Shown here: positions 3,996-54,210 of the stretch, one piece after another
Layout: each line of letters opens with the position of its first letter
How positions within the stretch are numbered: position 1 is the stretch's first letter
NCBI RefSeq assembly: GCF_039555335.1
Contig: NC_092628.1
Location: 101,330,647-101,394,646 of the forward strand
Origin: Amphiura filiformis
Lineage: Eukaryota > Echinodermata > Ophiuroidea > Amphilepidida > Amphiuridae
Length of the DNA stretch: 64,000 nucleotides
Direction: 5' to 3'
The notes under the pieces: generated by a model
Seen by the model: only the letters and a program-made list of their open reading frames with translations
The model's database searches: none
Told to the model about the DNA's origin: nothing
Translations under genes and position numbers: made by a program

Positions 3996-4173
3996 CTCTT
4001 TTTCTTTCTTTCGTCCTTCCGTCTTTCCTTCTCCCTCACCAAAAAGCAGCTAGGGCGTTAGGGTTAATTAGCTATAACTAAACATTGATCAACTTGTGTG
4101 AAAACAAGTAATAGATCAGTTGATCAAATCAAAATGATATCAGCAAAATATACCAATTGTTTTAATTCTGCAG

Positions 4174-4372
4174 GTGTGGGGATCTTTGGACGGATCCACA
4201 AATCCACACATCCACCGGGACCGAGTACAATGAAGGCAACCTTGGTACTAGAGGGTTTGCGCTGTTCTTTGCGACACACGCCTGCAATGAAATTTGTCGC
4301 AGTTTGGACCTGACTCAGTTTGACTTGCATCCTACAGAGTTCAGAGACCATGAGAAGGTTGTGCAGTTGCAG
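4174..4372 (+). CDS. eef2k: eEF2K exon: end of alpha-kinase domain
   Basis: Reads GDLWTDPQIH, then the glycine-rich GNLGTRG loop, then THACNEIC. By family knowledge the Asp of TDPQIH helps bind metal, and His-x-Cys-x3-Cys are zinc ligands of alpha-kinases. All are intact. The start follows ttctgcag and the end precedes gtaagaag; 66 codons plus one leading base finish in phase 0. The residues just before it (VVDIQGV in relatives) must come from an exon I could not find in the window. Confidence 0.93.
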
Positions 4373-7300
4373 GTAAGAAGGTTTTTAACCTCATGAGAAC
4401 TACCTGCCGATTGGCAAAAAAAAAAAATTGTCGTTATCAATTGACCCAATCAGCAACATTGTTAGAATAATTACACAACACAAAAAAAATTGGGGTGAAT
4501 TATTTGCAAAGCTCCATTCTGATTGGTGATTAAAGTGAAAAAATGATGTAATTGACCAATCAAAGGCAATGTTAGATTGGCAGGTAGTGCTCAGGGCGTT
4601 AAACAGTAAAAGAGTATATTACACAACCATGTTGCAGGCTGGTAGATAAAAAAATAATGCAACATTTGAAGATGGTAAAGTAAATTTTTTAATTCTTCCT
4701 TGGTTTTTGCTGTGCTTCAAGCGTGAATGCCGCAGAAGTGATCAAAATCGCGCTGTTGAAGCTGATTGGCTAATCAATGGTTATGACAGCAAAATGTTTG
4801 ACATCAAATCTTCAACGTGATGGATAATCACCATTACATAACTGGACCACTGAAGAATTAAACAATTTACTTTAAGGATATGAAAGGGATTTTGAAACAT
4901 TTTAAATAAAGAACAAATAATTCAGTCACCGGGAAGTGATGCAGAAATTAAAGGGGACATATTTGAATATAATTGTTAATAAAAGTGTGTTCATCACATA
5001 ATTTCCCACAGCAAAACCTACAGCACTCCGAATAGTTTGATATCAGTGAAATGTGAATGCAATGTTAGTGATGACATTGAGATTCATAGTTTGATAAATG
5101 CGCTTATAACCAAGAGCCCCACATGTTGCTTGCCCAAGACATCAGATTTAAAGATAGATTACAGAGAAATAGACCATGTCCTACAGTGAACTATATCATA
5201 GGCTAGTATGACTTCCTTCTATCATACTTATGCGTTATTGCATGGTCAGTGTGTGCCATAACCTGTATATCATAGCCTAGATAGCTCTAGATTAAACTTG
5301 TCCAGGGTTGTGTTCAAAGACAGCTTCCTGTTATTGTCCATAGGGGCAGCAGTGGTAATCAAGATTTATTGTAAACTTCCACTTAGCAACTGAAAAGGAT
5401 CTAGGGATGAATTTTTTGGGAATAACCCAAAAATTGATATTGATGATGTTCTGTATGTTTGGAAGGATGTGGATAAAAATCTCAATTATGTTTGTATAAA
5501 TCATCAGTCTTAAAAATGTAATTTTCAACATTTTGGAATTATGTTACTGGCAGGGAGAGAGGGGTTGGCCGAGAAACAAAACTAGTTTCATTTATGTGAC
5601 TTCATCTATCTTTTGGGTTGTCCCCATAGGTAATGGAAGAACTTTATATTAAGTGCAGCTCTTGCTCCTACTGGCATTTTTCTGTTAGATGATTAGCTTC
5701 GTGAATTCAAAAAACACTTTCTGAAAATATTTGTTTTTAGCAAATAAATGAAAAAGAAAGTGAAATGTAATTTTAGAAAGTGTTTTATGTATAGTTCTAT
5801 GTTAGACAACTTAATATCACATATTTAAAGGCAGGCAAAAGAAGCTCAAAACCGGCAAATGGCGAAAAATTACACTTTTGCATTAACGATGTCCATCTAT
5901 TGATAACTGACATATATATGACTTCAACCTTTATTTCTCACAGAGAAATTCAGATACACATGTACGGGGATCTACATACCACTGCACCCGCGCCCGCACC
6001 AGACCATCCATCTCACCAATGGATGTGACACAATTTGTCATCTTAGAGAGACAAATCTCAATGTCGGAGAGCTCTACTGGCTCAATGTCTCCACCAGTGG
6101 GGTCACCACCACCTGACTTCTTTGAACCCTCGTCACCAGATGACATCAGTATGTCACCAAGAGACAGCCACTTGTCCGAGTCTCCAATGTTGACTGACTT
6201 ACCGCGGTTCTTTGGCAACAGAAGACGACGCGGTGTTAGTGAATCGGATAGTGATACACTGTCAAGGGTAGGTTTCAATTTTAACATGCCCCTCACTGCA
6301 GTATGGCAGCATGATTGGGCTATTCCAGTTGAAATCCATACAAGATCCAAATGTAAGACCTGACCTTGATCTTCCACACAGGGAGTGTGAATTTCAAATG
6401 GAGCTACCTGAATGGTTGACTGTATATGAAATCTACACCCTTGTGTGGGAGATTAAGGTCATGTCTTCCATAGAGGGTATATGGATTTCAACTGGAATAG
6501 CCCCATTTATGTTAATAACAATTGTGCTGTTTAGTTGCACATATTGCATTCAAGTCTGTTTGGTAAACCTGTATGTTGAAATGATACTTGTTAAGTTTCT
6601 AGGTTAAAAAGCAAAACAAGACTGTCACACCAAGATGCAGCATAAGATCGACTTATTATGTCGGTGTGGTTTGTTACATAATGTAATGAAATCTCAAACT
6701 AAATATCATTGTCATATTATTTGGATCCACTCTTTTATTTAGAAAACGCAGTTTTTTCAATTAGTATGGAAAATTGATGGGTACTAATCATTTTGATACA
6801 AGTTGCACTTGTTTAAACAGACTACATTCAATTTAATTAGATACTGGATAATCTAGGATATAATCATGCCTGTTTGTAGTGGACAAAAATGCTAGACATT
6901 TTCAGGCACAAGCATAATTTTGTAAGCTCTACATTGTGTGACAGAAAGTAGCCAAGCCAGCTCAAGACATTGATATGCATCACTTTATAAAAGAAAACTT
7001 GGATGGACAAAGGAACTTGTGTTGATACCTGTCCTAAAAATATTGCTCAAGACCTGACTCTTGCTACTATTGTGATGTATATCTTGGTTGATTATGGCTG
7101 TGACTATGAGGCTACTGTATTCATTGTATTCTATAGAGAGCTGCTTATGCCCTATAGCAGTATTGTGAATTGGCTAGACGAGGTAGCATGGGTTTGGAAG
7201 CATATTGAGCTTAAGCTGCTAGGCACTACACTGGTGGCAGGCTGGCATGACTTATACTGCTGCATGTATAATGCTTATACTAATGTACAGGGTGTCCGAA

Positions 7301-10300: not shown

Positions 10301-13300
10301 CATGCAGGCCACTCAGTTTCTGTGCAAAGAGTCAAAGGGCATATCATAAAGCAATAGCTAGGTGCGTTGCATTTTTGTTTATGAATTCACTTCTGTCACT
10401 GATTGGCAGAGTGGCTGTCAATATCTAATCGATAAGTTGCTAACATGCTTGAGCATCAAGTCCTGTATCAGTTGACTCCAAGGCTCACAGCGATTGCACA
10501 CTGCTAGCGATTGTGAAAATATAACCCATGTAATCTCTAGCAATTTTGAACTATAAGTATGAAATGCCCATAATAATAATATCAAGATAGACTTTGTGAC
10601 TGAGAAAATGGTGAGAATTATTAGTATTTTAGTCCACATTCTTGTCTCTTCTCTGTCCATGCTAGCCTATTGTATTAGATCTGAACTTCATGTATACAAG
10701 AAATGAGCCTATTGTCAAGACTTCATTGAGAGATTGGACAGCTTTATTCCATAAGCTGTATCATCCATGTCTTGATACAAGGCTAACTCTTGAGTATGCT
10801 TACATGAAGGTAATACCGGTGTGGATGTAGGGTGCACACATATGCACTGTTGCAGAAACACACTCATTTTGTATAATTTGCTTTTTTTTCACAGCAGCAC
10901 AGCACAACTAACATTTATTGCAATTTTTTTACATATTACGCTGCTTAAATCTGCTTGCTTTTGTCTTTCTGTTTCCTTGCATGCTGTTGTTTGTTTGTCA
11001 ATAATATTTTAGAGAGCTGCATCAAACAATATACAAATAACTGAAGACGATGATATAATGGTTCCGGTATGTAGAATTAGAGTCAGACAACTAATTTGAG
11101 GTGCAGTGGGTAACAACATATCATGCATGGAGTGATCGATATAAGAAACATAGTCACTAATAATACATCCAAAAAATTATATTACTCAAAAATTGAGATG
11201 CCTAATTTGATCTTGAAGTGGAGTGGGTAACATATCATGCATGTAGTGATCGATATAACAAACATAGTCACTAAAACTAAATACTCACAAAATCATTTTA
11301 CTCAAAAATTGAGATTAAGAAAAATAGAGCAAAGAATGCCTAACTAATTTGATCTTGAGGTGAAGTGGGTAACATATCATGCATGGAGTGATCAACATAC
11401 GAAACATAGTCACTAATAATACATCACAAAATCATTTTACTCAAAAATTGAGATTAAGAAAAATAGTGGAAAAAATGCCTAACTAATTTGATCTTGAGGT
11501 GGAATGGGTAACATATCATGCATGTAGTGGTCAATACATTTAAAACTAAATACGTCACAAAATCATTTTACTCAAAAATTGAGATTAAGAAAAATAGAGC
11601 AAAGAATGCCTAACTAATTCGATCTTGAGGTGGGAGGGGTAACAACATTTCATGCATGTTATTATCAGTTAACCAACATTAACTTGTAGTTTTACATGTG
11701 CATAATACATCACAATCATTTTGCTTTAAAATAAAAAATTGCCACTCATCCATCACATTTAATGAACTAACCAACATTGTGTTGTGTTTCAAAAACAAAT
11801 AGCATGCAAATATAAAGAGCATGTCAATTCACAGATATATCTAATATAACTCAATCCTCATAAATATTGTATGATTAACCATCATGCATCACAAATCATT
11901 TTGTAAAGTCTAAATGTGTTTATGTACATGTAGTAATAGTATAAACACATCCAAAAAAGGTAGTCCCCACTATATATATGGTTCATAACATAAGGAAAAC
12001 AATAACAAATGTGGAGAATTTTGTTAGCTGTTGTAGGATACTTAACTTGTGTAAAACAATATCAGAATAATTGAAAAATTAATGAACAGCATATGAAAAT
12101 CATGCATAATGATAATGCTCTCCAAATTGAATAGACTGTGGTCAATGATGGCTCTTAGTGATCAATGATACATGCTGACCAGTGCCATACCAGTGTGGTT
12201 TCAAACAGGGGCTAACAAAATTTGTTTGTATCAATTTTATTGCTTTAATTTAATTGTCATCAAGGTAGTGGGAACTTTGTTTCTTGGGTGTGTTTATATA
12301 CAGTAATAATGGTCACACCGAGGTGTGGAATTGAGTGTGAGGTGAGGTAAGGTAAGGTATGGAGTGGAAAGTTTATCAAAACAAATTCAATATTATTTGT
12401 GACCTAATCTTGTCACAATTGGTCATCTTTGGGCAGAGGTTGAAATAGAAAGATAAAATCAATGAGTGGGATAATCTTAGAACTTGATTTAGAGATTTAT
12501 GCTATTCTACATAATGGCTATAGAATATAATTTGTGGAGTTCCAGCTATAGTCTGGTTGCCTTCCTTGAGGCAGTAATTTTGATATTTTTGTTTATTGTA
12601 TCTCTGAACATGATGATGAAAATTATATAAAAGTATACATTTTTAGAAAATAAATAATGCAAGTAACCCAACAAGCATATCAGAGTCCTGTAAAAATGAG
12701 TATTTTTTGAAAGTTTACAAAATTTGATACTTCTTTACTGCCTCGAGGAAGGCATACAGACTATTATATAGAACATATTATTTTTTATAGAACATGATGT
12801 TTGGAAGCTTCAGGGAGGAAAATATTTCATTTGGTCTGCAAAATTTCAAAGAGTATGAACACCTTTAAACAGGGTACTGTGATTTGATGCTGGAAATAAC
12901 ATATCGTGCATTATGCATATTTCATATTTTTGACAGCAATATGCACTGTACAATGACCTACTGTGGACTGAGGTATACAAATCTCAATACTTTGGTTGGT
13001 TTTGTTGTTGGAATTACATAACAACCTTAATTGTTGCTGTGAAATTCAATAGTGTTTTTATAACCTCCAGTTTAGTTTGTTAATTGCATCAACTGCAGCA
13101 ATTGCCTAATAATAAACACATGGGGTAATTATCTTTTGTGGAAAAAAAAGAAAGAAAGATGTGACAGTTAATTATTTTATTTCATCATTTTGATGTATTT
13201 GAAACCTGCATGTTAACTGGCACATTCATGTGTTACGTCCACAAATAATACGCATCCTGCAAGTTCCATTTCAATGCACTAATTGTGTAGATTTGGTTTG

Positions 13301-16300
13301 TGTGATGAATCTCACATGACCGTTTCATTCTTTTTAATGTCACTCTGTTTACAATTTACAAGCAATAGTGAAAGTGGGAAATTGGGATTTTTTTGTTGAC
13401 AAAATTACATGAAATCAGGGAAGAGAATGATTGATGGGTGGATACTGTATCCAAGTGCTCACATGTGGTATTAGAATTCAGTATAGCAATAAGTAACCAC
13501 CCAATACTGCCAGAATGATGTGGTAATTAATTGAGCAATGTACTGACCTTTCAGTAGACCATTTTAAAGTATTCCAATTTGATGGGTAAGGCAATTATGT
13601 GGTAACTCTGTCTTTGCAAGATTCTTGTTGATTGAATTCACACTAATTACAGTTAGAACATGCTATGGCCCACTTCTTATATAAAATGCGTCAGATTGTG
13701 ACATTTTACTCATTGCTAAAGCGCACTACAAATTCACATGCATGTGTAAATGTGTGAGGCAAGCTGCCTGGGTGTCAAGTTGTAAACATGCCTGGAAAAA
13801 TTGTGGGATCCAGGAAGATACTTCCAGGGAAGCTGGGCATTTAGAGGGAACTTTCCCCATTTTTAAAGGGAAATGGTGCTTCCTCAAATGAAGTAATACA
13901 TAAGAATTTATGAAAAATGTTGCTACTGTAAGTACGGTACTTAATGTACTTAATAATTTACCCATTTTCCTTGGCCTGGTTGTCAATTTTATTATTCACT
14001 ATTGAGAAGTAGGGTTAGAACCTTCCAGCAAGTTAAAATCCTACTAGACAAGTTGTGGACTACAGCAGCAAGATCATAAATCAAATCAATGCTTTGCTCT
14101 CACATGTAAGAAGGAATATTAAAAAATTGACATTTCATACTTACAGACACAGATGATAGAAATTACAAGTACATCAGGCATGAATGTTAGATAAATTAAG
14201 AAGTACTAGCCCCTCCTCGGCTATAAACCCACCCTAGTTTTGGAGTGAAATCGCCCATTTCGTGGTGAGGGAGGTATGGTATATATAACAGGGTATCAGC
14301 AAAAAGGAAATGCAAATTTTTCTGTAACTGTTTAGAAATTGTGTGTGTATGTGTGTGCAATGATGTAGGAGTTTGATGTGTTGAAATACCTGTTATAACA
14401 ACTTGGATTTAGCATGTTATGATGAAAGCATTATTATCATTATCAGTACAAATATTATCATTAGTATTATTTTTTGACCTACATTGATCATGAACAATTA
14501 CAAATCAAATCATGATATTTTCAGCATTTTGCAAAGAGGGTTTTATGGCACTTGACTAGTAACCCTGAGGTTCTGGATTTGATTTCACATTATCTCTTAT
14601 CACAGAAGCCAAACATTTAAAAAGTTTGTATGCTTTTTGATGTAGCATCTGTAAAAGAATATATTTCTGTACCATTTTTCACCCTGATGTGGCAGTGACA
14701 TCAATGTGTTGAAGCAGCTGTTTTGCTCACGCATCTATGCAGCATCTTTAAATACATGTGTGTGTACACCAGCGCTTTGAGCAAACGCTAGCGATTTGAG
14801 GCTGCGCCCAATGGAATGCACACTGGCGTTACGGTATCAGGTGAAAAATGATATAGAACACGTATACATGTAGGCTGTCAGACACTTGTTTCAATTATTA
14901 TTTTTGCATTTATTTATGTGAAATGATTGCCAGCAAGCTTGATTTTAAGCTGTAAGTGTGAACAGTTATTTTGTATTTTAAAAGCAAAAGCAGCAATGAA
15001 ATGCATTTTGTAATCAATCACCAGGAAGTGCATGCATACGTAATACCAGATGGAATGTGTGTTTAAAAAAAAATGTAGTGTTTGGAATAGGGAAGTAAAA
15101 CCAAGAAATAATATTAATAATAAAGTAAATAAATGAAGCAAATATAACATGAAATAAATGAAACAAAAACTAACATTGAATTTGTATGACATCATTTGCT
15201 TCATTGTATAACCAATGGGCTATTCTAGTTGAAATCCATACACCCTCTGTGGAACTTAAATATAACCTTAATCTCCCACACTGGGAATGAAAATTTCAAA
15301 TGGAGTCGACCATTCAGGTAACCCCATTTGAAATTCACATGCCCTCTATTGGAGATTATGTCTTCCATAGGGGGTGTATGAATTTCAACTGGAAGAGCCC
15401 TTCCTCTGAAGTAAAAAATGCAATATCTTTTTCCTACAAGTAGATATTTTGTTTTGCAGACATTCAAAAATATTTGACAGCCACATAAAAACAGTATCTT
15501 CTGTGTTGTTTACTGCAGAATTATGCAGCTTTTTTCCATATGATTACTCATACATTATGTGTCATATCCAATATCTCTCTGATATCAGAATCAGTGATGT
15601 ACCGGCTGAAATATCCAAGGGGGAGGGGGTAAAATTGACAGTTCGTCCCACTGACTGGCTCTCAGAATTACTTCATTGGGACAAATACTCGCAGAGGCTG
15701 TAAAAATTTGCTATTGTTTTGCTAAAATGGACTAACATGAGCTTCATTTGGGGCTGATACAGGCCTAAAGGAAGAAATATTGCCCCCCCCCCCTGACTTC
15801 CGCTCGGTATGCCACTGATAAGAATTTGGATTGTGTTATATCATGTTTAACCTGTTTATTGTTTTCTCTTTGCTATTACCAGGAGGATGAGCGAGCTGCT
15901 ATGTTTATGAATCAGCAGCACAAGGCATCATCCGTCAACCAGGAGATGATGATGAGAGCCAAACTGAACCATCAGAAAGCTGGAGGATCCATACTGGGAC
16001 AGGTTAGTCCAATACCAGGGGGCACATCGTCATGCCATTATTCCAGATTTATAGACCCTAGATGTTGCAGTTGAAATTACAGGAGGATGGATGGACCAAT
16101 TTTTTCACATGATTTTTAATTTATGTTCAATGACCTTTACCCCCACAACCCTCCTAAGAAGTTTTAAGCTAGCAGTTCAATTGAACTTATCGGTAAATCC
16201 CATAATTCCTTGTGGTTAGACCTGAGATGTTATCATTTGACATCACACCGATGCGCACATCATTTAGCGAACATTGTTACTGCACATTCCAAGTCAGCCT

Positions 16301-19300
16301 GATATCAAATGATGACTAATTACAATGTGAATTATGCGATTTACTAAAAAGGTTAATCTTTTTGAAGTGAGACACACTACTTCAAAAGTCTATGCCCGTA
16401 TACAGGCATTTTTTCACCGCCTTCTAATACTGGATTGTCATAACAAAGCTTAGACAGGTCTGTTATAGTATAGTTTGGTTTGAGCAATATGGATGAAATC
16501 GAGTGAGACGTAATGTGCAATGGTCCCCGTCCCCGTGGTAAAGAAAAAATATTCACTCACCAAGTTATGAATATATTTATTAACAGGGATGTAAGTTTTC
16601 TGTATTTTTACAGAATTCTGTAATTTTTGTAGTCCAGATTTACGCAATTTCTTTTATTTTCAGCCCATTTTGGGCTTTTTAGCCCGAATTTACGCGCTTT
16701 AAGGGTTACTTACATCCCTGATGATTTTATAAAACGCATTTGGTGTAGCTCATTTCTCTTAAATATTTGACTCTCTTGACTTCCAACAGATTCATTTGGA
16801 TCTTGCACGTTATCACGAGATTGGGCGTTTTGCGGAAGATGAAAATGATCGTAACATGGATGCGGCATTATACCATTTGGAGCAGGCAGCTAAGTGTGGT
16901 GTGCTAGAAGCCATCATTGGCATGGCTAGGATGTATGTACAACTTCCTCATGATGTACTGGAAGAGATGTCTGTGGATGTAAGTTTATAATGTAGTATTA
17001 AATGACTAGGGTCTGCACAGTGAGTGATTTATCACTATCTTAAAGGAGTATTTTGTGATCCTAGCATCATATTTTTATGACATTTTTCATCAGATATCTA
17101 CGACAAAAGCTTATTCCCAAAATTTCAGTTGATTACGATTTTGCATTTGAGAGTTATGCATGATTATGTGTATTACACTGCTTCATAGGCCACTGTTGTA
17201 ATTTCGTTCTGGTACACCAGAATATTATTCAAATTTGACAATATTTTTGATATACGAATCAATCTGCAAGAAATTGTTTGCAAATAAACATTACGTAGCC
17301 AGATGTTTCCAGTGGTATAAAAATCTCAACTTTTTTTTAGAATAGTGGGGAGATGTGGCTGTGGATTACGAAATGCCCTTTTAAATGACTCACTATTTCT
17401 TGTTAGATTTACTGAAACTCACCATAGGCAGTGTTGTTAAGCTCTGAAACTCAAGCTTTAAAAGGACTTACAATGTTTGTTTCTGCTTTGAATTCAACTA
17501 CCTTCAATGAATACGCTTTGCTGTTGGAAATATTAGTAACACACAATTTTATACTGATTGTACAGGACACTGATGATAACATAGCTGAGGGATTGGAATG
17601 GATGGAAATCGCAGCTCAGGCTGGAGATAGAGCTTCTTTATTATACCTGGCTAAAGCCTATGATACAGGCAATGGGCTGAGCAGCCACAGGTGAGACAAT
17701 GTAGAGAATCCCATGGGCACTATTAACTTTTTTTACGGTACCTCTGATTGGTTAATTATATGATACAATCATCTTGAGTAGCCAACCAAAAAAGAGCTTT
17801 TAGGTCTATTGGTAATTTGAAGCATAATCCCCTTCGGTCGTACTGACTATTCTTACCATCTCTTGATTGGTTCAATACATGACCAATGAAAATAATTGTT
17901 AAAGGCTGATAATGTGGTGTTCATGCAGTTAATTTAAAAAAAGTTAGGTCAAATGATTTCTAACAACTAAAATGTGTTCCACCATAAATTGGCAACATGA
18001 CCTTTGCCCCATTTTGTGTAAGATCGGTGCATTTTGGAATAGTTAATGTTATAGTGTTCATGGTTCAGCTCTTATTTATCTGTAACAAGTATAAGGTGGT
18101 GAAGCCACCTCTTGAACCCATCAAAATTGATCAGTTGTTGTCATTTTTCATGCAGAGAGCGTGACTGGACGGAAGCAACACATTGGTACCAAGAGGTTTT
18201 GGAAAACAACAATGAAGATGATGAAGGAACATTTGATGCTACTATGGATGATCCTCCATATACGATACAAGCTAGACTGGCTGAGATGTACAGAGGGGGA
18301 GGGTTTGACCTAGAAGCAAGCCCCACTAAAGCAGGTATGTATGTATGTATAATAGATGAGGTGACATTAGCCATCCTCCATATACGATACAGGCTAGACT
18401 TGCTGAGATGTACAGACAGGGAGGTTTTGACCTAGAAGCAAGCCCCACTAAAGCAGGTATGTATGTATGTATAATATATGAGGTGACATTAGCCATCCTC
18501 CATACACGATACAAGCTAGACTTGCTGAGATGTACAGAGGGGGAGGTTTTGACCTAGAAGCAAGCCCCACTAAAGCAGGTATGTATGTATGTATAATAGA
18601 TGAGGTGACATTAGCCATCCTCCATACACGATACAAGCTAGACTTGCTGAGATGTACAGAGGGGGAGGTTTTGACCTAGAAGCAAGCCCCACTAAAGCAG
18701 GTATGTATAATAGATGAGGTGACATTAGCCATCCTCCATACACGATACAGGCTAGACTGGCTGAGATGTACAGAGAGGGAGGTTTTGACCTAGAAGCAAG
18801 CCCCACTAAAGCAGGTATGTATGTATAATAGATGAGGTGACATTAGCCATCCTCCATACATGATACAGGCTAGACTTGCTGAGATGTACAGAGAGGGAGG
18901 TTTTGACCTAGAAGCAAGCCCCACTAAAGCAGGTATGTATGTATAATAGATGAGGTGACATTAGCCATCCTCCATATACGATACAGGCTAGACTTGCTGA
19001 GATGTACAGAGGGGGAGGTTTTGACCTAGAAGCAAGCCCCACTAAAGCAGGTATGTATGTATGTATAATAGATGAGGTGACATTAGCCATCCTCCATATA
19101 CGATACAGGCTAGACTTGCTGAGATGTACAGAGAGGGAGGTTTTGACCTAGAAGCAAGCCCCACTAAAGCAGGTATGTATGTATAATATATGAGGTGACA
19201 TTAGCCATCCTCCATACACGATACAGGCTAGACTGGCTGAGATGTACAGAGAGGGAGGTTTTGACCTAGAAGCAAGCCCCACTAAAGCAGGTATGTATGT

Positions 19301-21998
19301 ATAATAGATGAGGTGACATTAGCCATCCTCCATATACGATACAGGCTAGACTTGCTGAGATGTACAGAGAGGGAGGTTTTGACCTAGAAGCAAGCCCCAC
19401 TAAAGCAGGTATGTATGTATAATAGATGAGGTGACATTAGCCATCCTCCATATACGATACAGGCTAGACTTGCTGAGATGTACAGAGAGGGAGGTTTTGA
19501 CCTAGAAGCAAGCCCCACTAAAGCAGGTATGTATGTATAATATATGAGGTGACATTAGCCATCCTCCATACACGATACAGGCTAGACTGGCTGAGATGTA
19601 CAGAGAGGGAGGTTTTGACCTAGAAGCAAGCCCCACTAAAGCAGGTATGTATGTATGTATAATAGATGAGGTGACATTAGCCATCCTCCATACACGATAC
19701 AGGCTAGACTTGCTGAGATGTACAGAGAGGGAGGTTTTGACCTAGAAGCAAGCCCCACTAAAGCAGGTATGTATGTATGTATAATAGATGAGGTGACATT
19801 AGCCATCCTCCATACACGATACAAGCTAGACTTGCTGAGATGTACAGAGGGGGAGGTTTTGACCTAGAAGCAAGCCCCACTAAAGCAGGTATGTATAATA
19901 GATGAGGTGACATTAGCCATCCTCCATACACGATACAGGCTAGACTGGCTGAGATGTACAGAGAGGGAGGTTTTGACCTAGAAGCAAGCCCCACTAAAGC
20001 AGGTATGTATGTATAATAGATGAGGTGACATTAGCCATCCTCCATACACGATACAGGCTAGACTGGCTGAGATGTACAGAGAGGGAGGTTTTGACCTAGA
20101 AGCAAGCCCCACTAAAGCAGGTATGTATGTATGTATAATAGATGAGGTGACATTAGCCATCCTCCATATACGATACAGGCTAGACTTGCTGAGATGTACA
20201 GAGGGGGAGGTTTTGACCTAGAAGCAAGCCCCACTAAAGCAGGTATGTATGTATGTATAATATATGAGGTGACATTAGCCATCCTCCATACATGATACAG
20301 GCTAGACTTGCTGAGATGTACAGAGGGGGAGGTTTTGACCTAGAAGCAAGCCCCACTAAAGCAGGTATGTATGTATAATAGATGAGGTGACATTAGCCAT
20401 CCTCCATATACGATACAGGCTAGACTTGCTGAGATGTACAGAGGGGGAGGTTTTGACCTAGAAGCAAGCCCCACTAAAGCAGGTATGTATGTATGTATAA
20501 TATATGAGGTGACATTAGCCATCCTCCATACACGATACAGGCTAGACTTGCTGAGATGTACAGAGCGGGAGGTTTTGACCTAGAAGCAAGCCCCACTAAA
20601 GCAGGTATGTATGTATGTATAATATATGAGGTGACATTAGCCATCCTCCATACATGATACAGGCTAGACTTGCTGAGATGTACAGAGGGGAGGTTTTGAC
20701 CTAGAAGCAAGCCCCACTAAAGCAGGTATGTATGTATAATAGATGAGGTGACATTAGCCATCCTCCATATACGATACAGGCTAGACTTGCTGAGATGTAC
20801 AGAGAGGGAGGTTTTGACCTAGAAGCAAGCCCCACTAAAGCAGGTATGTATGTATGTATAATATATGAGGTGACATTAGCCATCCTCCATACACGATACA
20901 GGCTAGACTTGCTGAGATGTACAGAGCGGGAGGTTTTGACCTAGAAGCAAGCCCCACTAAAGCAGGTATGTATGTATGTATAATAGATGAGGTGACATTA
21001 GCCATCCTCCATACATGATACAGGCTAGACTTGCTGAGATGTACAGAGGGGAGGTTTTGACCTAGAAGCAAGCCCCACTAAAGCAGGTATGTATGTATAA
21101 TAGATGAGGTGACATTAGCCATCCTCCATATACGATACAGGCTAGACTTGCTGAGATGTACAGAGAGGGAGGTTTTGACCTAGAAGCAAGCCCCACTAAA
21201 GCAGGTATGTATGTATAATAGATGAGGTGACATTAGCCATCCTCCATACATGATACAGGCTAGACTTGCTGAGATGTACAGAGGGGGAGGTTTTGACCTA
21301 GAAGCAAGCCCCACTAAAGCAGGTATGTATGTATAATAGATGAGGTGACATTAGCCATCCTCCATATACGATACAGGCTAGACTTGCTGAGATGTACAGA
21401 GGGGGAGGTTTTGACCTAGAAGCAAGCCCCACTAAAGCAGGTATGTATGTATTATAGATGAGTAATGAAGTAAGACAATGCGAGACACAAATTAATGTAT
21501 GCGAGGATCAGAAATAAACAATGCAAGCCCGAGAAATTATGATTTAAATGACATGTTTGGGGCTCAAGCAAACTGACATATGAAAATTTTGAGAGAGAAA
21601 AAGTCAGGACTCAGCGGGGATTGAACCCCAGTTGCTGGATTATCGGTCCAGAGTCGAGCTACTGTACTACCTTAGTTCACAGTCGGTACTCGGGCAATCT
21701 CAACTTAAGTCCCCATGATAACTCGATGCAAAGCCTTACGACCCCAAGTTTTGATCTTGTGACCAGTTTGGTAATCCCTGCCTAAAACTGTGTTTGAGAA
21801 ATGAAATGCCACTTAGTTATTGTCAAGATTATAAACTTGTTTGTTTCATACTCTTGTTGCTCATGTGTAGGTGACCTCTACAATGAGGCTGCAGAAGGTG
21901 CCATGGCCGCCATGAAGGGTAGGCTGTCCAACAAGTACTTCATGCTAGCAGAGGAGTGCTATGGAGAATGTGAAGAAGAAGAGGAAGAGGGGGAGTAA
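4174..21998 (+). CDS. eef2k: eukaryotic elongation factor 2 kinase, 3' part of gene (multi-exon)
   Basis: eEF2K is the Ca2+/calmodulin-dependent alpha-kinase that phosphorylates eEF2 and slows translation elongation in the cytoplasm. The window holds its C-terminal half. Confident exons are 4174-4372, 5944-6267, 7454-7513, 8282-8344, 15883-16002, 16790-16978, 17566-17690, 18156-18334 and 21871-21998 (stop at 21996). Less certain linker exons are 10666-10809, 11013-11066 and 12937-12972. All have AG/GT borders. Introns are phase 0 up to the exon at 17566, then phase 2 and phase 1, and every junction fits. Translation gives the end of the alpha-kinase domain, a Ser/Pro-rich linker, Sel1-like helical repeats and the conserved C-terminal tail that recruits eEF2. 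The N-terminal calmodulin site and kinase N-lobe lie upstream of the window. The last intron contains a large array derived from the penultimate exon. Confidence 0.95.
5944..6267 (+). CDS. eef2k: eEF2K exon: regulatory phospho-linker
   Basis: 108 codons, phase 0 at both ends (ttatttctcacag acceptor, gtaggt donor). It opens with NSDTHVRGST, which lines up with the autophosphorylated Thr348 segment of human eEF2K (SAKTILRGT). RARTRPS follows, near the human Ser366 mTOR/p70S6K site. The remainder is acidic and rich in Ser-Pro dipeptides (SMSPPVGSPPPDFFEPSSPDD) and ends in a basic RRRR stretch, as expected for the disordered R-loop. The homology of the individual phosphosites is inference from spacing. 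Confidence 0.88.
6314..6504. mobile_element. palindromic MITE, copy 2
   Basis: Terminus attgggctattccagttgaa at the left and ttcaactggaatagcccca at the right, with inverted-repeat blocks between. It lies in the eEF2K intron shortly after a donor site. Transcribed, it would fold into a ~90-bp hairpin. Confidence 0.82.
7454..7513 (+). CDS. eef2k: eEF2K small linker exon
   Basis: 20 codons, QKRELFEAMLEDRIDREIVS, between gatttgtag and gtatgtag, phase 0-0. It fits the run of phase-0 linker exons and is charged and helical. Direct similarity to vertebrate eEF2K is weak, so the call rests on splice signals, phase and position. Confidence 0.6.
8282..8344 (+). CDS. eef2k: eEF2K small linker exon with SGSDDFD
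   Basis: 21 codons, KKDRSGSDDFDHILLHAFGDM, between tatgtag and gtaggtgg, phase 0-0. The acidic serine cluster resembles the ESDEDSLGSSG part of the vertebrate linker, but alignment is loose. Confidence 0.6.
8725..8903. mobile_element. GC-rich near-perfect hairpin element
   Basis: 179 bp running from agggattcaatcatgttaca to its reverse complement tgtaacatgattgaatccct. The arms also contain gcgtggtttactt and aagtaaaccacgc around a short loop of gcagctttagctgc type. The inner part is GC- and CpG-rich, unlike its surroundings. Probably a young foldback MITE; no coding. Confidence 0.85.
10666..10809 (+). CDS. candidate eEF2K-linker exon
   Basis: A strong acceptor (tctcttctctgtccatgctag) is followed by 48 open codons, phase 0-0, and a gtaata donor. 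The product (PIVLDLNFMYTRNEPIV ... LTLEYAYMK) has no recognisable relative and is hydrophobic for a disordered linker. It is compatible in phase with the flanking eEF2K exons and could be lineage-specific or alternative. Confidence 0.42.
11013..11066 (+). CDS. candidate eEF2K-linker exon
   Basis: 18 codons, RAASNNIQITEDDDIMVP, between aatattttag and gtatgtag, phase 0-0. It is acidic and disordered, like the eEF2K linker. A ~125-bp tandem repeat begins 20 bp downstream. Confidence 0.5.
11086..11670. repeat. ~125-bp tandem repeat, about 5 copies
   Basis: Blocks aggtggagtgggtaacatat, catgcatgtagtgatc, acatagtcactaa and ctcaaaaattgagattaag recur five times in order with small indels. Intronic. 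Confidence 0.85.
12547..12767. mobile_element. MITE with ~40-bp terminal inverted repeats
   Basis: Left tatagtctggttgccttcct then tgaggcagtaa; right ttactgcctcgaggaaggca then tacagactatta, the reverse complement with few mismatches. About 220 bp, no coding. Lies in an eEF2K intron. Confidence 0.75.
12937..12972 (+). CDS. candidate eEF2K micro-exon
   Basis: 12 codons, QYALYNDLLWTE, between ttttgacag and gtatac, phase 0-0. Phase and splice signals fit, but the exon is very short and not recognisable. Confidence 0.3.
15216..15400. mobile_element. palindromic MITE, copy 3
   Basis: Same family: gggctattctagttgaaatc at the left, gaatttcaactggaagagccc at the right, centre near 15,300. Lies in an eEF2K intron. 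Confidence 0.82.
15592..15817. mobile_element. hAT-like MITE
   Basis: Termini cagtgatgtaccgg and cggtatgccactg are inverted repeats starting CAGTG. Flanking 8-mers atcagaat and ataagaat match at 7 of 8 positions, fitting an 8-bp hAT target duplication. Confidence 0.7.
15883..16002 (+). CDS. eef2k: eEF2K exon before the Sel1-like repeats
   Basis: 40 codons ending GGSILGQ, which matches GKSILGK in vertebrate eEF2K just before the first helical repeat. Acceptor ttgctattaccag, donor gttagt, phase 0-0. A hAT-like MITE ends 65 bp upstream of the acceptor. Confidence 0.88.
16584..16720. mobile_element. short TIR element (cagggatgtaag)
   Basis: Begins cagggatgtaag and ends cttacatccctg, a perfect 12-bp inverted repeat around 137 bp. 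The CAGGG terminus suggests hAT, but no convincing 8-bp duplication is seen. Confidence 0.6.
16790..16978 (+). CDS. eef2k: eEF2K exon: first Sel1-like repeat
   Basis: 63 codons, IHLDLARYHEIGRF through LPHDVLEEMSVD, colinear with human VHLAMVRYHEGGRF...LPHHILADVS. It forms the first helix pair of the C-terminal Sel1-like region. Phase 0-0, donor gtaagt. A TTAA-flanked MITE begins 61 bp after the donor. Confidence 0.94.
17040..17384. mobile_element. TTAA-flanked MITE, copy 1
   Basis: Starts ttaaaggagtattttgtgat and ends attacgaaatgcccttttaa. The body matches copies at 50,980 and 58,901 throughout (ccaaaatttcagttgatt, gagttatgcatgattatg, cagtggtataaaaatctcaa). About 345 bp, non-coding. TTAA at both edges suggests piggyBac-type target duplication. 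Confidence 0.82.
17566..17690 (+). CDS. eef2k: eEF2K exon: second Sel1-like repeat
   Basis: Reads DTDDNIAEGLEWMEIAAQAGD then SLLYLAKAYDTGNGLS, matching human GFDYLLKAAEAGDRQSMILVARAFDSGQNLS. Acceptor ttgtacag, donor gtgaga, ends in phase 2. Confidence 0.94.
18156..18334 (+). CDS. eef2k: eEF2K penultimate exon: third Sel1-like repeat
   Basis: Starts phase 2 after tttttcatgcag and reads RDWTEATHWYQEVLENNNED through PYTIQARLAEMYRGGGFDLE and ends SPTKA plus one base (phase 1) before gtatgt. It aligns with the human stretch ending YGLEKDPQRSG. The last ~84 bp and the donor are the founder of the downstream array. Confidence 0.95.
18335..21450 (+). repeat. tandem array of ~26 copies of eEF2K exon end plus splice donor
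   Basis: The motif gcaggtatgt occurs 27 times, the first at the authentic exon end (18331) and the last at 21437, giving a mean period of 119.5 bp. Each unit is an ~84-bp copy of the exon 3' end (from cctccata to aaagcag), then 2-4 GTAT tetramers, then a short spacer taatagatgaggtgacattag. The coding part keeps the exon's length and frame in most units; two units (~20,690 and ~21,050) lack one G. Unit length steps by 4 bp with GTAT number. No copy extends to the exon's 5' part, so duplication began across the exon-intron border. The minus strand shows repeated 60-78 codon ORFs, which are shadows. Confidence 0.97.
21607..21679 (-). repeat. tRNA-like sequence (SINE head or tRNA pseudogene)
   Basis: On the minus strand a 73-bp stretch contains a perfect T-arm (gggg-ttcaatc-cccc), a five-pair anticodon stem (ctgga/tccag) around a GAT anticodon, and a degenerate D-arm. 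The acceptor stem has mismatches and position 33 is C rather than U. A functional tRNA is therefore unlikely; a SINE head or old pseudogene is the better reading. It lies between the array and the last eEF2K exon. Confidence 0.6.
21871..21998 (+). CDS. eef2k: eEF2K terminal coding exon and stop
   Basis: Acceptor ctcatgtgtag, then GDLYNEAAEGAMAAMKGRLSN through YGECEEEEEEGE and TAA. It closely matches the human C-terminus (GDLYTQAAEAAMEAMKGRLAN). This tail is needed for eEF2 phosphorylation in characterised eEF2Ks. It is joined to the previous exon across a 3.5 kb intron consisting mostly of the exon-end array. Confidence 0.96.
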
Positions 21999-23076: not shown

Positions 23077-23289
23077 TGGGTTTTCTTTCTCTTGAAACAG
23101 ATTCATCAGGATCGTTCATAGTTCATAAGATTGATAAAGGTTCTTGTTCAGATCCAATAAAATGATACTACTCACTCAGAAATATTTCAATTCCTATCAG
23201 GAATCTTGTTCACTCTGGTACTGGTGTTTCTAGGTGTTTTTAGAACCGGCAACACTTCTGTCTGGTTTTTCCTGTATCCCACGGCTGAG

Positions 23290-24355
23290 ATTGTTCCCCG
23301 GTTGTACGGTAGTCCTAAAATTCACAAGAAGGACACGCCTCTCCGTCCAATAGTAGACTATACAGGCTCCATTGGATATAATGTATCACGCTCACTGGCC
23401 GACATCCTAAGTCCCATTGTGGGTACTACCAGCCACCACGTGCTCAATTCTAGACAGTTGGCTGAGGACTTAGGGGAAATTACCATCAAAGAGGATGAGT
23501 GTCTCATTTCACATGACGTTGTGTCTTTATTTACTAATACCCCCATTGAGCTGACTTTGGGCATCATTCGTCATAAACTAGAGCAAGACGCGAATCTCAA
23601 ACAAAGAACCCTGCTTACAGTTGACGACCTCATGGAGTTGGTTAATTTCATTCTAACCCACAGCGTATTTCCGTCCAAAGGTGTAATTTATAAGCAAAAG
23701 AAAGGAATGGCAATGGGTAGTCCACTCAGCCCGATAGCAGTTGACCTCTTCATGGAATGGCTTGAGGAGGAAGCGATCACTACAGCCCCGCTCAATTGCA
23801 AGCCGTCTCTTTGGAAGAGATATGTAGCGATGTTCTTGAGGTTATTAAGCGTGGCGAGGCAGAGAACTTGACCAACCATCTTAATCAAGTTGACCCGACA
23901 GGGAGTATTAAGTTTACTTACGAGGAAGAATCCAACAGTAGCCTACCCTTTCTAGACACGCTCATTATCAAGAAGCCTGATGGCACCACAAAGCTCTGTA
24001 TTTATCGCATAAGCCAACCCATACAGATCAATACTTGCAGTTTGATTCACACCACCCACTACATCAGAAGTTGGGTGTCGTAAGAACTTTGTTAGATAGA
24101 AAAAGACACCATTGTAACGAGACAGAAGATCAGCGCAAAGAGGAGTTGCACATAAAACAAGCCCTCGCCAGATGCGGTTACCCTGAGTGGTCGATCAACA
24201 AAGTTAAAGCGGACAAAGAGAACCCTAAACCTAAGGTTAAACCCCCCAAAGACACTAGGGAGAGGAGTAAAGGCCTTGTGGTCATCCCTTATGTGGAGGG
24301 CCTCTCGGGAGGGTTTCAAGAATTTTTAAGAAACACGGATTCTCCACTAGCATGA
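23290..24355 (+). pseudogene. Penelope reverse transcriptase, truncated and frameshifted
   Basis: The first frame gives PRLYGSPKIHK, LRPIVD, DVVSLFTNTPI and KGMAMGSPLSPIAVDLFMEW, the typical Penelope RT blocks. The frame breaks at ~23,835, inside the segment that should carry the catalytic YVDD box. The downstream frame resumes with LEVIKRGEAENLTNHLNQVD and LPFLDTLI. A third frame from ~24,035 gives FDSHHPLHQKLGVVRTLLDR. The N-terminal RT part is absent, deleted next to the left pseudo-LTR. Codons before position 23,290 come from the pseudo-LTR and are not protein. Confidence 0.88.
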
Positions 24356-33040: not shown

Positions 33041-34603
33041 GTAAACAGATCAAATTAAACTAATTTCTCTGTGTAAGGTTTGAGTGTCTTTGCATGATTG
33101 GAAATGTTGGAAAAAGTGGAAGAAAAAAAGAAAGTTATATGTTACCATGATAATTATAAATACTTTCTAGATTAAATGAAGAGAACCAGGTGAGAAAATG
33201 TATATCTGCTTTGACACAGGTTTATTGTGAATCTATACTATTAAAGAGGAACTTGCCGATAATCGATACTTTGAAGAGGAACTGATCGATTCATCGGTAT
33301 CATCTCGGAGATTATAGATAAATTATAAATTAATAAATAGATAAATAAATAGGTTCTAGCATTTCCAGATGAATGGTAAATGCATAGATAGATAGATAAA
33401 TTAATAAATACAAATAATTATTTGGATTTGGATTTATTCGGTAGATCAACCAATGGTGGCCCGCTTATTTACGGTCCGTTGCTGCGTTGCTATCGCGGAT
33501 TACGCACACAGGTCGTGGCAACTTCCAGACGCGCTAATGGTAACAAAACTTCCAGTTTCAGTCTAAGACGGAAAATATCACATCTCTTAGAGCGGAACTA
33601 ACAAATTAATGGCTGAGACAAAGGTGGTTTTAAGTTACGTATTTTGAAAATAAATGGTCCAAGTGATCTAATAATTTTGAAAGTGATATTAGTTTATCCG
33701 TTCGTGGTGACTTTCGACGGAGAGTGGCTTTATGCGGCATGGTAACCGCAACGGCTATAATAATTGATCAACTGCATTCGTTTATGCAAATTATGACTTT
33801 CGGAAACTTCTTTTGTGATGACTTTCCGAAGATTTTAAATTCAAGGTAGGCCTAGGCATATATACGGTATTGGAAAGTAATTTGAGTTTATTCGTTTGTC
33901 ATGTTGTGATGAATTTCGATAGGGAGTGTGGGACATTATTAGCAGATTATAGCATGGTATAAAACCGCAACCGCTAAATATCCGTGGCGTAGATTTCTTT
34001 TTGACATTAGGGGAGGGATGAAAACATTTCTTGAAGTAGGCATATTAATAGTGAATCCGGCATCTTTTGGCAACATTAACAATGGCGTAGATTTCTCTTG
34101 ACATGGCATGGGGGATGGGTCCGTTTAAATCAATTTCTTGCAATAGGCCTACAGTGAAGCCCGCATCTTGGCTGCAGAATAATTTATGGCAAGCTAATTA
34201 GGCCTACTGGTGAATTATATTGTGCAAAAGTGGAACAAATTCGCACGAAGGCCATAAAAATTGGCACTTTTTAGTTTGGCCAAAAATGAGGTTAATTTTG
34301 TCAGAAACCCACATCTATTATACATGTGTGAACTTGGGGTGATTATACGGACCATTGACCTTATCAAAACATTGGGGGGGTTATACCCACCCCAACACCG
34401 AATTTACGCTATGTAACTCAACCTTCTTGAAACCCAATGTTGCTATAGGCCTACTTGATGAAACAGAAACACATATAAAAAAAGAACGACGAAAGAAATA
34501 AAGGAACCCACATACATGCGTCAACATGGAGGTGATTCAGTAGATCATGCCCCTTATCGAAATATTGAGGAATTTATTACTCAGCCCGGGATTTATGCCT
34601 ATG

Positions 34604-35440
<837 letters not shown>

Positions 35441-35591
35441 CGTTTGCAAAGTAGAGGCAACAAATGGTAGGCCTACCACATCACTAACAGCGTAATAATT
35501 GAGCTGTTAAAAGCGATACCAATTGACATGATTACCATTTCCATCGTTTATACTAACCGATCCCGTTTACTAACCGCTCCCATTTACTCAT

Positions 35592-35629
35592 CTAGCGGGG
35601 GGCCCGCGCGAAGCGCGGGTACCCGCTAG
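35592..35629 (+). other. Helitron 3' terminal hairpin
   Basis: ctagcggggggcccgcgcg and its near-complement cgcgggtacccgctag form a stem with a gcgaagc tip and end at CTAG. It is the transposition terminator expected at a Helitron 3' end. Confidence 0.8.
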
Positions 35630-36668
35630 TGTAAATGAAAGAATAGTTAGTGGTTGAGGTCTTGCATGTTGTAGAATATGTATGGAAAAATTCAAAAAGA
35701 AATTGCCTATGTGACTTTTATCTTCTGTTTTACTTGATAAAATATGGTGTGGTTTTTTTTTTTCATTATTTGTTTTGAAGGCAATGTAAATTTAGAGTAA
35801 ATTTTAAAAGAGTACATATTGCGATATATATTTTGGCATGTCTTGTATGCTATTCATGTATTAGGGAAGAGTGGGAAAAGGTTTCAACAAGTTGTCAGTT
35901 ACTATAGGTGTTTTGCTTACTCTGTTAAGATTGAATGTGAAATTCACTACAACAATATGATATCATTTTATTAAGTACATAGTGTGTCGAAAAGGCTGGT
36001 TTAACTCAACTTTGCATTATGATATTGTGTAGTCCACAGTGTCAGCCTAGCTTTGGGCAGGCATTTACCAGGCAATTTATACCAAAATATTTGTAGTACA
36101 TTTGTTGCGTTACACACATCATATTTCCATAAGCCATTGTAATTTTGTGCTGAAAATGATAGGCATAGGAGAGTGATATTTGCTGGAATAGTTACGACAT
36201 GTAACTTCCTAAAGTTGGTTCAATCTTGACAGTATAAACACACCTAAGAAACCTGGCGGGGTCTTACATATTTTCATTTTATCAGTTTAAAAAAAAAAAT
36301 TTAATGTTGTTTAAAAGGCATTCCGTGAAGTATGAAATACTAAGCCCTCCTGTCATGTTTAATGTTTGTTTATCAATATTACATGTAATGGTTGCTCACT
36401 CAAAACCCATATAAATTGTCATTAAAATTATGTAGTCCTTGCAAGTTTCAGTAGTCTCATATCAAGAGGCAAAGTTACATTTTGTATTCTGGGTACAGTA
36501 AAGGTACCAGTATTATATTTGTGTTAATGAATATGAGACTTCTGAAGCTTTACATGGAACTAATTTCTGTACATAAAGTAAAAATATTCATTGTAATACC
36601 ATGTAATAATACCATGCTCATTATATAAAACATATTCCATTTATATGTACTGAACAGGCCTACCTCAT

Positions 36669-44637: not shown

Positions 44638-47600
44638 AATCATCATCATCACCACCTCCAGCATCATCACCATCATCATCATCATCATAATCATCATCAT
44701 CACCACCTCCAGCATCATCACCATCATCATCATTAAAAACAACATGAACAACATTATCATCATCATTATCATCATCATCATCACCACCTCTCATCATCAT
44801 CACCATCATCAACATCATCATCATTATCATCATCATTAACAACAACAACATCAACAACATTATCAGCATCATCATCATCATCATCATCATCATTACTATC
44901 ACCATCATCATCATCATCATCATCGTTACTACAGTATCACCACCATCATCGTCATCATCATCACCACCTCTATCAACATCATCATCATCATCATCATCAT
45001 CATCAACAACATTATCATCAACATCAATAATCATTCTTTGTGAGCCATACTTACCAACCGTTCATGTCCCAGCATTTTCATGACGGTAATTTCTCTTGGC
45101 AGGAACTTATCAATAACTTCTTTCGGTGCTTTTAGTTTGTAGAAAACTTTCACTGCATAGGTGCGGTTAGTTTTACGGCAATACATTTTCTTCACCTAAT
45201 GAAAAGATATTAAAACCCGCATAATTAATTCAAAATTAAAAAAGAAAACGAAGTCTCCACTTCACCAACTCAGATGGAACATATTATCCGATGTTGCATC
45301 CATACACATTTAAATTAACAAATTAATGATGTTTAATATCTATTTATTTGCACATGATGAGGGACGTATTAGGCCTACATGGGGGGAAATTTTGCTCCCA
45401 AAATAGCACACTACTTTCAGTTACTATACTTTTGAAAGCACATTACTTCGTCAGCTATCTACTGTTGATAGCACACAATTTCGTCAGCTATATCTACTGC
45501 TGATAGCACACAAAACTTCGTCAGCTACCTATTGCTGATAGCACATTACTTCATCAACTATATTTACTGCCGATAACACACTACTTCATCCACTATCTAC
45601 TGCTGATAACACACTATACTTTATCCACTATCTACTGCTGATAACACACTACTTAATCCACTATCTACTGCTGATAACACACTACTTCATCCACTATCTA
45701 CTGCTGATAGCACACTACTTCATCTACTATATTGCTGATAACACACTACTTCATCCAATATCTAGGGGAGAGCGGGGAGTGTTCGCCCTATATTTTTCTG
45801 ACCAGCCTAGCGATGTCAATTTTAAGGTTAGGGGTGACCTGATTAGCCCATGTGAAAGCCCTATGTCTTAGCTATATACGACCACAATTCCAGGCCTATA
45901 GGCCTTACAATAGCAACAGGATAGAGCAAACGAAAAAGTTTTGCAAAGTGGCGAACTTGCCCCATACTGGGGCAGGTTCGCCCATATGGTGGGGTAAGTT
46001 ACCCTAATCACAAAAAAGGTTTAAACATTGCATAACAATAACAAATTAAATGCAAACATTTTAGCAAGAGTTTACAGGGCATTCATTCTCTTCAAGGGAG
46101 TCACTAAATTGTTGCAGGGGTCGGGTCAGGGTAAAATGTAGGGGTCCAAAGTGAGCTTAAACTTATCATGTTTACAACTTCGGGGAGATTATGGATTAGG
46201 ACATAAACGGTGGTATGAGTAATACTGATACCACATAACTTTAAAAAACATGCTTTTCAGTAGTTTTACCTTGTTTAATGGCATAATTATAAATATTTTG
46301 CATAATACGCTGATGGGGCAGGTCCGCCCTCCAGTTTGGGGTAAGTCCGCCCGGGGAAGATATAGGGCGAACATGCGCCCCATCCTCAAAAGGGCGAACG
46401 TGCCCCTTGTGCACATTTTTGTATTTTCTTCAGGGTATGCAAAATACAAATCGAATAAGGAGTTTATAACTGCATTAAATCTTTGACAAATCCCATATGT
46501 TCCCAATACAGATTTTCATTAAAACCATCTGATGTATCAATGATAATACAACATTATTAATGCAAGAAAAAATTACCTTTTGGTGTAATTTTTTTTTTTT
46601 TGTTTTGGCTGCAGTTCGATGAACACGTCCCTATATGTCGCGTAGCTAATATGAGAAGTTTATAACGACCTATGTCACCTAATTTTCCCATCACCAAATT
46701 CCCCGATAGCCGTAGTGCTGAGAAACAAGGGGTGGGCGAACCTGCCCCTAGGGCGAACACTCCCCGCTCTCCCCTACTGCTGATAGCACATCACTTCTTT
46801 TCTACTGCCGATAGCACACTACTTCATCCACTATACTGACTGCTGATAGTATATTACTTCATCAGTTATCTACTGCTGATAGCACACTACTTCATCAGTT
46901 ATTTATTGCTGATAACACACTACTTCATCGACTATCTACTGCTAATAACACACTACTTCATCCACTATCTACTGCTGATAACACACCACTTCATTAGTTA
47001 TCGACTGCTGATAGCACGCTACTTTATCCACTATCGACTGCTGATAGCACACTACTTCATCAGTTACCCAGCAAACACAAAACGTTTTCGACATCATTCG
47101 CAAAAGGTTATAAAAGGTTGTCAGAAAACGTTTAAATGTCGGGTTATATAAAGGGTATATTAAGAGTATAAAACGTTTTCATAACCTTCAAAAAATTGAA
47201 AAAATTGATAATCAGCAAACAAAAATGTTTTACAGAAAACGTTTAAATGTCGGGTTATATAAAGGGTATAAAAACGTTTCAATAACATTCCAAAAACATT
47301 CTTGAAAACTTGATACAAAACATTTTAAACAGAATGTTATTTTGGGGTTGAAAAATTTTTTTAAGAAAAATGTTTGCCCAAAATATTTTCAATAACGTTT
47401 TCAAAACGTTTTCATGACCATTATATACCCGACATTTAAATGTTATTAAAAGGTTTTGTAAAAAACATTTCTGTGTTTGCTGGGTTCAAATATTTTAACA
47501 TAATGTTATTTGAGTACCGTATTGACACAATATTTGGCAAAAACGACATGCCAAATGATCTAAAACATTCAGTTGTTGACATGTATGCCGACGATACCTT

Positions 47601-53804: not shown

Positions 53805-54210
53805 CCCTACGTAGGCATTTTATATAATTCCAGAAGGGTTTGGTGTTATCAGTTTCAAGACATTCACCAATACTATGGACATGTTCCCGATGCAGTGTCC
53901 TCATTTGTCTGTCAATTTTGCGTCTTGATTGTTTAAATCTGTCCCAGAGTTCAAAATCACCAGTTTTTCTAGCCTTGTCATAAAGCTTGCGTTTTTTCCT
54001 GATATTTCTTTTCATGGTGGCATTTATCCACGGAACACTTGGTTTGGATGAAGTCATTTTGGATGGTATATTAACATCCATTGATTTTTGGATAGTGTTT
54101 GTAAAGCGATTCCAGAGCTCATCGATGTCCAAGTTCTGGACAACTTCTTCAGTTAATTCAGCACCAAGTTCATCGAGTTCATCAGTGATTTTACTGAAAT
54201 TTGCTTTTTA
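53770..54210 (-). pseudogene. CR1 LINE, linker between endonuclease and RT (frameshifted)
   Basis: Open frame with NFSKITDELDELGAELTEEV, IPSKMTSSKPSVPWINATMK, RKIDRQMRTLHREHVHSIGE and NTKPFWNYIKCLRRDVFGVS, typical of the CR1 segment preceding the RT. Separated by frameshifts from the endonuclease (~54,205) and RT (~53,780). Confidence 0.85.

Follow-up and report, generated by a model that had tools for sequence, protein, structure and literature searches.

The last intron of the eEF2 kinase (eEF2K) gene in the window, by which we mean the whole stretch of 64,000 nucleotides that was analysed, is filled over most of its length by 26 head-to-tail copies of the end of the preceding exon, each carrying a copy of that exon's own 5' splice site (Table 1). 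Our best explanation is that the array is a young intronic minisatellite produced by a duplication across the exon-intron border, that the donor at 18335 is used normally and that the effect on the gene is small; we give this reading a probability of roughly 0.63, and we regard the tandem repeat as probably young and mostly harmless.

Table 1. Features of eEF2K and of the tandem array in its last intron (positions are those of the window; a slash marks an actual or potential splice point here and in the text)
Feature	Position	Strand	Basis
eEF2K open frame containing the exon that encodes the end of the alpha-kinase domain	4166..4393	+	Pfam Alpha_kinase, 48.3 bits
eEF2K exon, C-terminal region	16790..16978	+	PDB alignment and splice sites
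eEF2K exon, C-terminal region	17566..17690	+	PDB alignment and splice sites
Penultimate eEF2K exon, 179 nt	18156..18334	+	PDB-aligned translation; atgcag/ acceptor, CAG/GTATGT donor
Complete tandem array of 27 units, of which unit 0 is partly exonic	18251..21462	+	Tandem Repeats Finder and unit-by-unit parsing
Real 5' splice site, GTATGTAT	18335..18342	+	10 of 11 U1 matches, preceding CAG counted
First of 26 candidate cassettes, from a GATGAG or TATGAG acceptor to a copy donor, 96 nt, 32-residue block	18361..18456	+	
Intronic copies (26), each with 84 or 83 exon-end bases, a GTATGT donor, a short stretch of intron and, except in the last, the GTGACATTAGCC joint	18373..21462	+	
Candidate cassette 20, 95 nt, frame-breaking	20631..20725	+	
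Candidate cassette 23, 95 nt, frame-breaking; unit identical to unit 20	20992..21086	+	
Unique rest of the last intron, single AATAAA at 21513	21463..21870	+	BLAST within the window
Last eEF2K coding exon, stop codon, conserved C-terminal tail	21871..21998	+	PDB alignment

The gene and the tandem unit

The gene, presumably that of an invertebrate animal, lies on the plus strand and the window carries its C-terminal half, in which the end of an alpha-kinase domain upstream, a SEL1-like C-terminal region and a conserved C-terminal tail identify an eEF2 kinase gene. The Alpha_kinase match covers profile positions 146-185 of 185, that is, only the last 40 positions, and the limits of that exon are approximate; the Sel1 match of the native tail is below the Pfam cut-off (26.3 vs 30.7 bits). 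When the four exons further downstream are joined, they read openly to the native stop and give 205 residues that match four eEF2K chains in the PDB (E 1.7e-56 to 2.7e-26, the best over residues 1-199), which we take to be those of the human protein. The checked exons are intact. An earlier, sequence-only reading of this DNA had named the gene eEF2K and had called the last exon, beyond the array, essential; the best PDB match bears out the name, and the exon is conserved with the solved eEF2K, the extreme C-terminus of which is reported, in passages of PMC5742810, as critical for phosphorylating eEF2.

Tandem Repeats Finder describes the array with a period of 122, 26.9 copies, 95% matches and a score of 5589, and a count unit by unit finds 27 unit starts, with GCAGGTATGT present 27 times and the internal edge GACATTAGCC 26 times. 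The array makes up 3,128 bases (88%) of an intron of 3,536 bases (18335 to 21870). The same earlier reading had proposed about 26 head-to-tail copies of an exon end with its GTATGT donor in this intron, a real donor at 18,335, an acceptor at 21,871, and a tandem unit built from the end of an exon and the splice donor belonging to it. The 26 intronic copies and both positions are confirmed, and GCAG/GTATGT recurs in 27 of 27 units; the limits had to be redrawn, as the array starts inside the exon at 18251, where unit 0 is the genuine end of the penultimate exon (its last 84 bases) together with its donor.

Each unit runs from the exonic bases through one to three GTAT steps and TATAATAGATGAG, or a near variant, to GTGACATTAGCC, after which the next unit begins. 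The exonic part is 84 bases long (83 in units 20 and 23) and the intronic piece 30-38 bases (22 in the last unit), with unit lengths of 122 (n = 12), 118 (n = 10), 117 (n = 2) and 114 bases (n = 2), and of 106 bases for the last unit, which lacks the 12-base GTGACATTAGCC and continues into unique intron (GATGAG/TAATGAAG). The 15-base joint sequence GAGGTGACATTAGCC occurs 26 times in the window, always exactly and always inside the array, compared with 1.14 occurrences expected by chance with up to 3 mismatches. By BLAST, one unit found three weak matches in the window outside the array (E 0.24-0.85) and the intron beyond the array had no good match elsewhere in the window; a 28-base unit core had no exact match among viral contigs, as expected. 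Head-to-tail units of the ~10 to >100 bp class with high identity place the array among the minisatellites. In the unique part of the same intron, a tRNA-like stretch on the minus strand (about 21600-21715), with a GGTTCAATCC-like box recognised by eye, is perhaps a tRNA-derived SINE; ARAGORN found no tRNA in the window, and a search of the window gave no second good copy of the stretch.

Over the exonic part, the 26 copies are on average 97.4% identical to one another (minimum 94.1%) and 92.9-96.4% identical to the real exon, with 8 variable columns among 84 and column 53 as the sole fixed difference between the real exon and the copies. The copies vary in blocks: similarity at a lag of three units was matched in 0 of 2,000 permutations, while the other lags tested (1-15) were not significant. 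The longest exact repeat within the array is 320 bases, and, when unit 0 and the truncated last unit are included, the 27 units comprise 18 distinct sequences in no simple repeating order, eight of which are present two or three times (units 20 and 23 are identical). The three-unit blocks and the 320-base repeat fit unequal exchange or slippage in blocks and argue against a simple assembly loop. No column varies within the last 31 of the 84 exonic bases (P 0.02, looked for post hoc), which, together with the 27 invariant donors, could hint at constraint near the donor. There was no significant sign of coding selection on the copies or on their 32-residue frame (P 0.09-0.31 across the models tried): four of at least eight substitutions in the copies are synonymous vs 23-28% expected (P 0.09-0.16 for this count), and a lack of stops in that frame would be expected in any case (P 0.68-0.79). 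On these grounds, selection on that frame was rejected.

A 139-bp minisatellite of 3.2 copies lies between eEF2K exons (11202-11644; best donor-like site 7/11), and three arrays of a 33-bp, TATCTACTGCTGATAGCACACTACTTCATCAAC-like unit stand 1-2 kb apart at 45403-45764, 46774-47062 and 48895-49046, with no strong donor-like site. An AAAG-type tract of 830 bases (34605-35437) is strongly purine-rich on the plus strand, and the skew over 34001-36000 is 0.42 for AT and 0.375 for GC. On the minus strand, a non-LTR-like element (52107-55471) contains RVT_1 (109.7 bits), Exo_endo_phos_2, the endonuclease part (34.9 bits), and a PHD finger frame (31.4 bits). Two reverse-transcriptase frames lie on the plus strand, one above the Pfam cut-off (47440-48414, 31.7 bits) and one below it (23161-23871, 22.2 of 29.6 bits), the latter presumably Penelope-like by its appearance to the eye. 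Recurring IPVEIHT-like and FKW-like chance translations, likewise noticed by eye, suggest a possible dispersed repeat at about 1898-2138, 6272-6604 and 15180-15509. Rfam gave nothing in the window at gathering scores.

Donors, acceptors and predicted products

The 27 donors all read ACTAAAGCAG followed by GTATGTAT and are identical over 18 bases. What had been described as 26 near-identical donor copies are equal to the real donor in U1 match and are exactly rather than nearly identical over those bases. Each matches U1 at 10 of 11 positions, on a simple match count against the U1-pairing consensus rather than a trained splice model. None of the 3,457 GT sites in the window outside the array reaches 10 and three reach 9; in four other tandem arrays of the window the best site scores 7/11, and the two other eEF2K donors that were checked score 8 and 7. 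Since the copy donors beat these two, complete silence is not a given; the 27 sites, equal in sequence quality, are a candidate cluster of alternative 5' splice sites. Masking of the donors by RNA structure was considered and rejected for the one pair of units folded (two of 27), where z was -0.11 and 86 of 200 shuffles folded as well. The real donor is itself a TATG microsatellite (GTATGTATGTAT, 18335-18346), which provides a second donor register 4 nt downstream (U1 4 or 8 of 11 across units).

If any of the 26 copy donors were joined to 21871 as the end of an extended exon, translation would meet the same premature stop, with the tail GMYVCIIDEVTLAILHIRYRLDLLRCTDREVLT (26/26); the last exon would be lost and the protein would end after 33 foreign residues. 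An RNA whose stop lies over 50 nt ahead of its last junction is a target of NMD, and the premature stop is so placed for 25 of the 26 copy donors, so that such RNAs should be decay targets. Exon definition, which disfavours the recognition of very long exons, argues against frequent use of the far donors: with successive copies, the exon would lengthen from 179 nt to 301, to 423 and finally to 3,285 nt.

Acceptors were measured by the pyrimidine fraction of the preceding 20 bases only, which is 0.60-0.70 at the four real eEF2K acceptors checked. The sequence-only reading had also given each copy a TTAG acceptor-like edge. The edge is there, at 26 joints, but its credentials as an acceptor are poor: TTAG/C has a pyrimidine fraction of 0.36 (21st percentile of the AGs outside the array), and the exon that it would open contains a stop in 26 of 26 cases (24/24 of 86 nt, 2/2 of 85 nt). 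With these stops and no pyrimidine-rich sequence upstream, TTAG was rejected as a cassette acceptor. The fraction is 0.41 on average for GATGAG/G (33rd percentile), 0.42 for ATAATAG and 0.40 for GCAG/G (33rd percentile). Not every potential acceptor is poor, since ACAG/GCTAG inside the copied exon has a pyrimidine-rich lead-in (0.65, 88th percentile, 18 copies measured); the 64-nt exon that it would start does not keep the frame and is interrupted by a stop in 21 of 21. Upstream of GATGAG or TTAG, a branch-like YTNAY motif at a distance of 12-45 nt was found in 0 of 26 units, although this test is weak, given that one of the four real acceptors checked (17566) also lacks the motif.

Origin of the array and competing explanations

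The anatomy of the duplicated segment can be read from the units: it comprises 84 bases of coding sequence, the donor site and some 22 bases of the intron, and a 12-base filler sits at the joint. From this we infer a tandem duplication spanning the 3' boundary of the penultimate exon, and the simplest history would be one such duplication across the donor, with the filler, and then amplification. Unequal exchange or slippage in multi-unit blocks, often of three, may have raised the array to 26 intronic copies, a process that we infer from the three-unit pattern. U1 probably binds many of the copy donors, and the 179-nt exon with its proper acceptor and the 18335 donor would be what is recognised as an exon. 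Most likely 18335 is the main donor used, because it alone closes the normal 179-nt exon beginning with a proper 3' splice site. Copy donors would be used rarely and would yield stop-containing transcripts that decay; the effect of the array would be small and its copy number would drift. This minisatellite reading is favoured by the low-pyrimidine acceptors at the unit edges (0.36-0.42), by the lack of YTNAY, by the absence of clear selection on the copies and by the other minisatellites in the window, one of them between exons of the same gene. The invariant donors and last 31 exonic bases, the strong U1 match and the ACAG/GCTAG lead-in count against it.

It is unlikely, though the strongest of the rivals and the idea put forward in the sequence-only reading, that the 26 copies compete with 18335 for the acceptor at 21871, such that active eEF2K depends on unit number and on splicing factors that shift 5' site choice. 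In its favour, 27 of 27 units share one 18-base donor context, all 26 downstream donors would lead to the same truncated tail, with 25 of 26 expected as NMD targets, and the C-terminus lost is the one reported in PMC5742810, in the passages cited above, as critical for eEF2 phosphorylation. Passages of PMC5585400 further report that SRSF1 and hnRNP A1 activate intron-proximal and intron-distal 5' sites, respectively; in the DOK7 case, as given there, SRSF1 moved the choice of 5' site toward the intron-proximal one, and by analogy a similar shift here would favour the copies nearest 21871. Against such competition, the copy donors need exons of 301 to 3,285 nt, contrary to exon definition, and nothing points to selection on the copy number. 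Somewhat less likely still is a combined device in which 27 identical donors compete, some units are read as in-frame 96-nt exons and unit number sets the ratio of kinase forms. If true, the number of units would govern the balance of three forms of the kinase, namely full length, truncated and extended by 32-residue inserts, and the 5' splice site itself would be both the amplified satellite unit and the dial.

We consider it improbable that each unit acts as a 96-nt, phase 1-1 cassette (GATGAG/GTGAC to GCAG/GTATGT), spliced singly or serially, which would place 32-residue blocks (GDISHPPYTIQARLAEMYREGGFDLEASPTKA or a near variant) before the last exon as a length-variable insert in the SEL1-like region. 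Tried singly, 24 of the 26 cassettes read in frame as far as the native stop; the first 19 are jointly open (+608 residues), and the cassette starts with GTGAC, the same five bases as the last exon. In random fillers of random length, GATGAG itself gives an open cassette in only 29%, but some AG does so in 64%, and finding one is therefore not surprising. Cassettes 20 and 23 are frame-broken, so that inclusion of all 26 would stop at residue 796 of 1,038, and the acceptor is well short of the real ones (0.41 vs 0.60-0.70) and lacks a branch-like motif in every one of the 26 units. Nor does a three-cassette model give three Sel1 matches; it gives one, sub-threshold at 24.3 of 30.7 bits, and the native tail is likewise sub-threshold. 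A shade less probable again is an assembly artefact, whether of the whole array or of its copy number: the 320-base exact internal repeat exceeds short reads and eight unit sequences recur, but the 18 distinct sequences without a simple repeating order, the clean joint to unique intron and the same 12-base filler in 26 of 26 joints speak for a real array. Very improbable, and the least probable of all, is a reading based on the AG/GT in every unit, after the AGGT model of intron gain described in passages of PMC3443670 and PMC4974935: GCAG/GTATGT is present in 27 of 27 units, but GCAG has a pyrimidine fraction of only 0.40, and the products would be hard to tell from ordinary splicing.

Significance and relation to known systems

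The 27 donors, identical over 18 bases and spaced 114-122 nt, provide a natural separation of position from sequence. As the donors are identical, any preference among them must come from position, exon definition or wider context. What is understood of the choice between competing 5' splice sites derives mostly from constructs or genes with two or few sites. Passages of PMC10632439 report that splice-aware alignment produces spurious junctions at repeats, so that junctions called from short reads inside the array would be unreliable. The array also shows how a partial exon and a splice signal can multiply, a possible raw material for new exons or introns, and, should splicing respond to copy number, a minisatellite would be tied to the control of translation elongation.

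The array shares with intronic minisatellites and VNTRs its head-to-tail, near-identical units (here of 114-122 bp), its block-wise variation and its confinement to a single intron. However, their units are anonymous intron sequence, whereas the eEF2K unit is an exon end with a functional-looking 5' splice site. A minisatellite upstream of DDX3Y is reported in an excerpt of PMC3039753. In earthworm metallothionein, as described in passages of PMC12783039, minisatellite-length repeats likewise occupy an invertebrate intron and duplicated exon sequence is absent from the final transcript; in contrast, the repeats there are distinct from the exon copies, and those passages do not describe the unit with a donor. 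On competing donors, passages of PMC8724738 contain nothing direct. Among the matches listed from the open-licence full-text literature, there was no tandem array with a 5' splice site as its unit, which weakly suggests that such arrays are rare.

Tandem exon duplication, as outlined in passages of PMC9013439, similarly repeats exonic sequence in the following intron, where it could be alternatively spliced. The eEF2K array differs in that it repeats no more than the 3' end of the exon, 84 of its 179 bases, and leaves out the acceptor before 18156; it is thus not a whole-exon tandem duplication. In the potato RdRp case, according to passages of PMC4974935, a tandem duplication across an exon-intron border also copied splice signals; there the acceptor side was copied once and the new intron is spliced in RNA, whereas in eEF2K it is the donor side that has 26 extra copies, and a new intron would be hypothetical. 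The duplicated AG/GT that the AGGT model needs is present in each eEF2K unit (27/27). The array is most likely an intronic minisatellite formed through a border-crossing duplication, related both to AGGT intron gain, as set out in passages of PMC3443670 and PMC4974935, and to partial exon duplication, as set out in those of PMC9013439.
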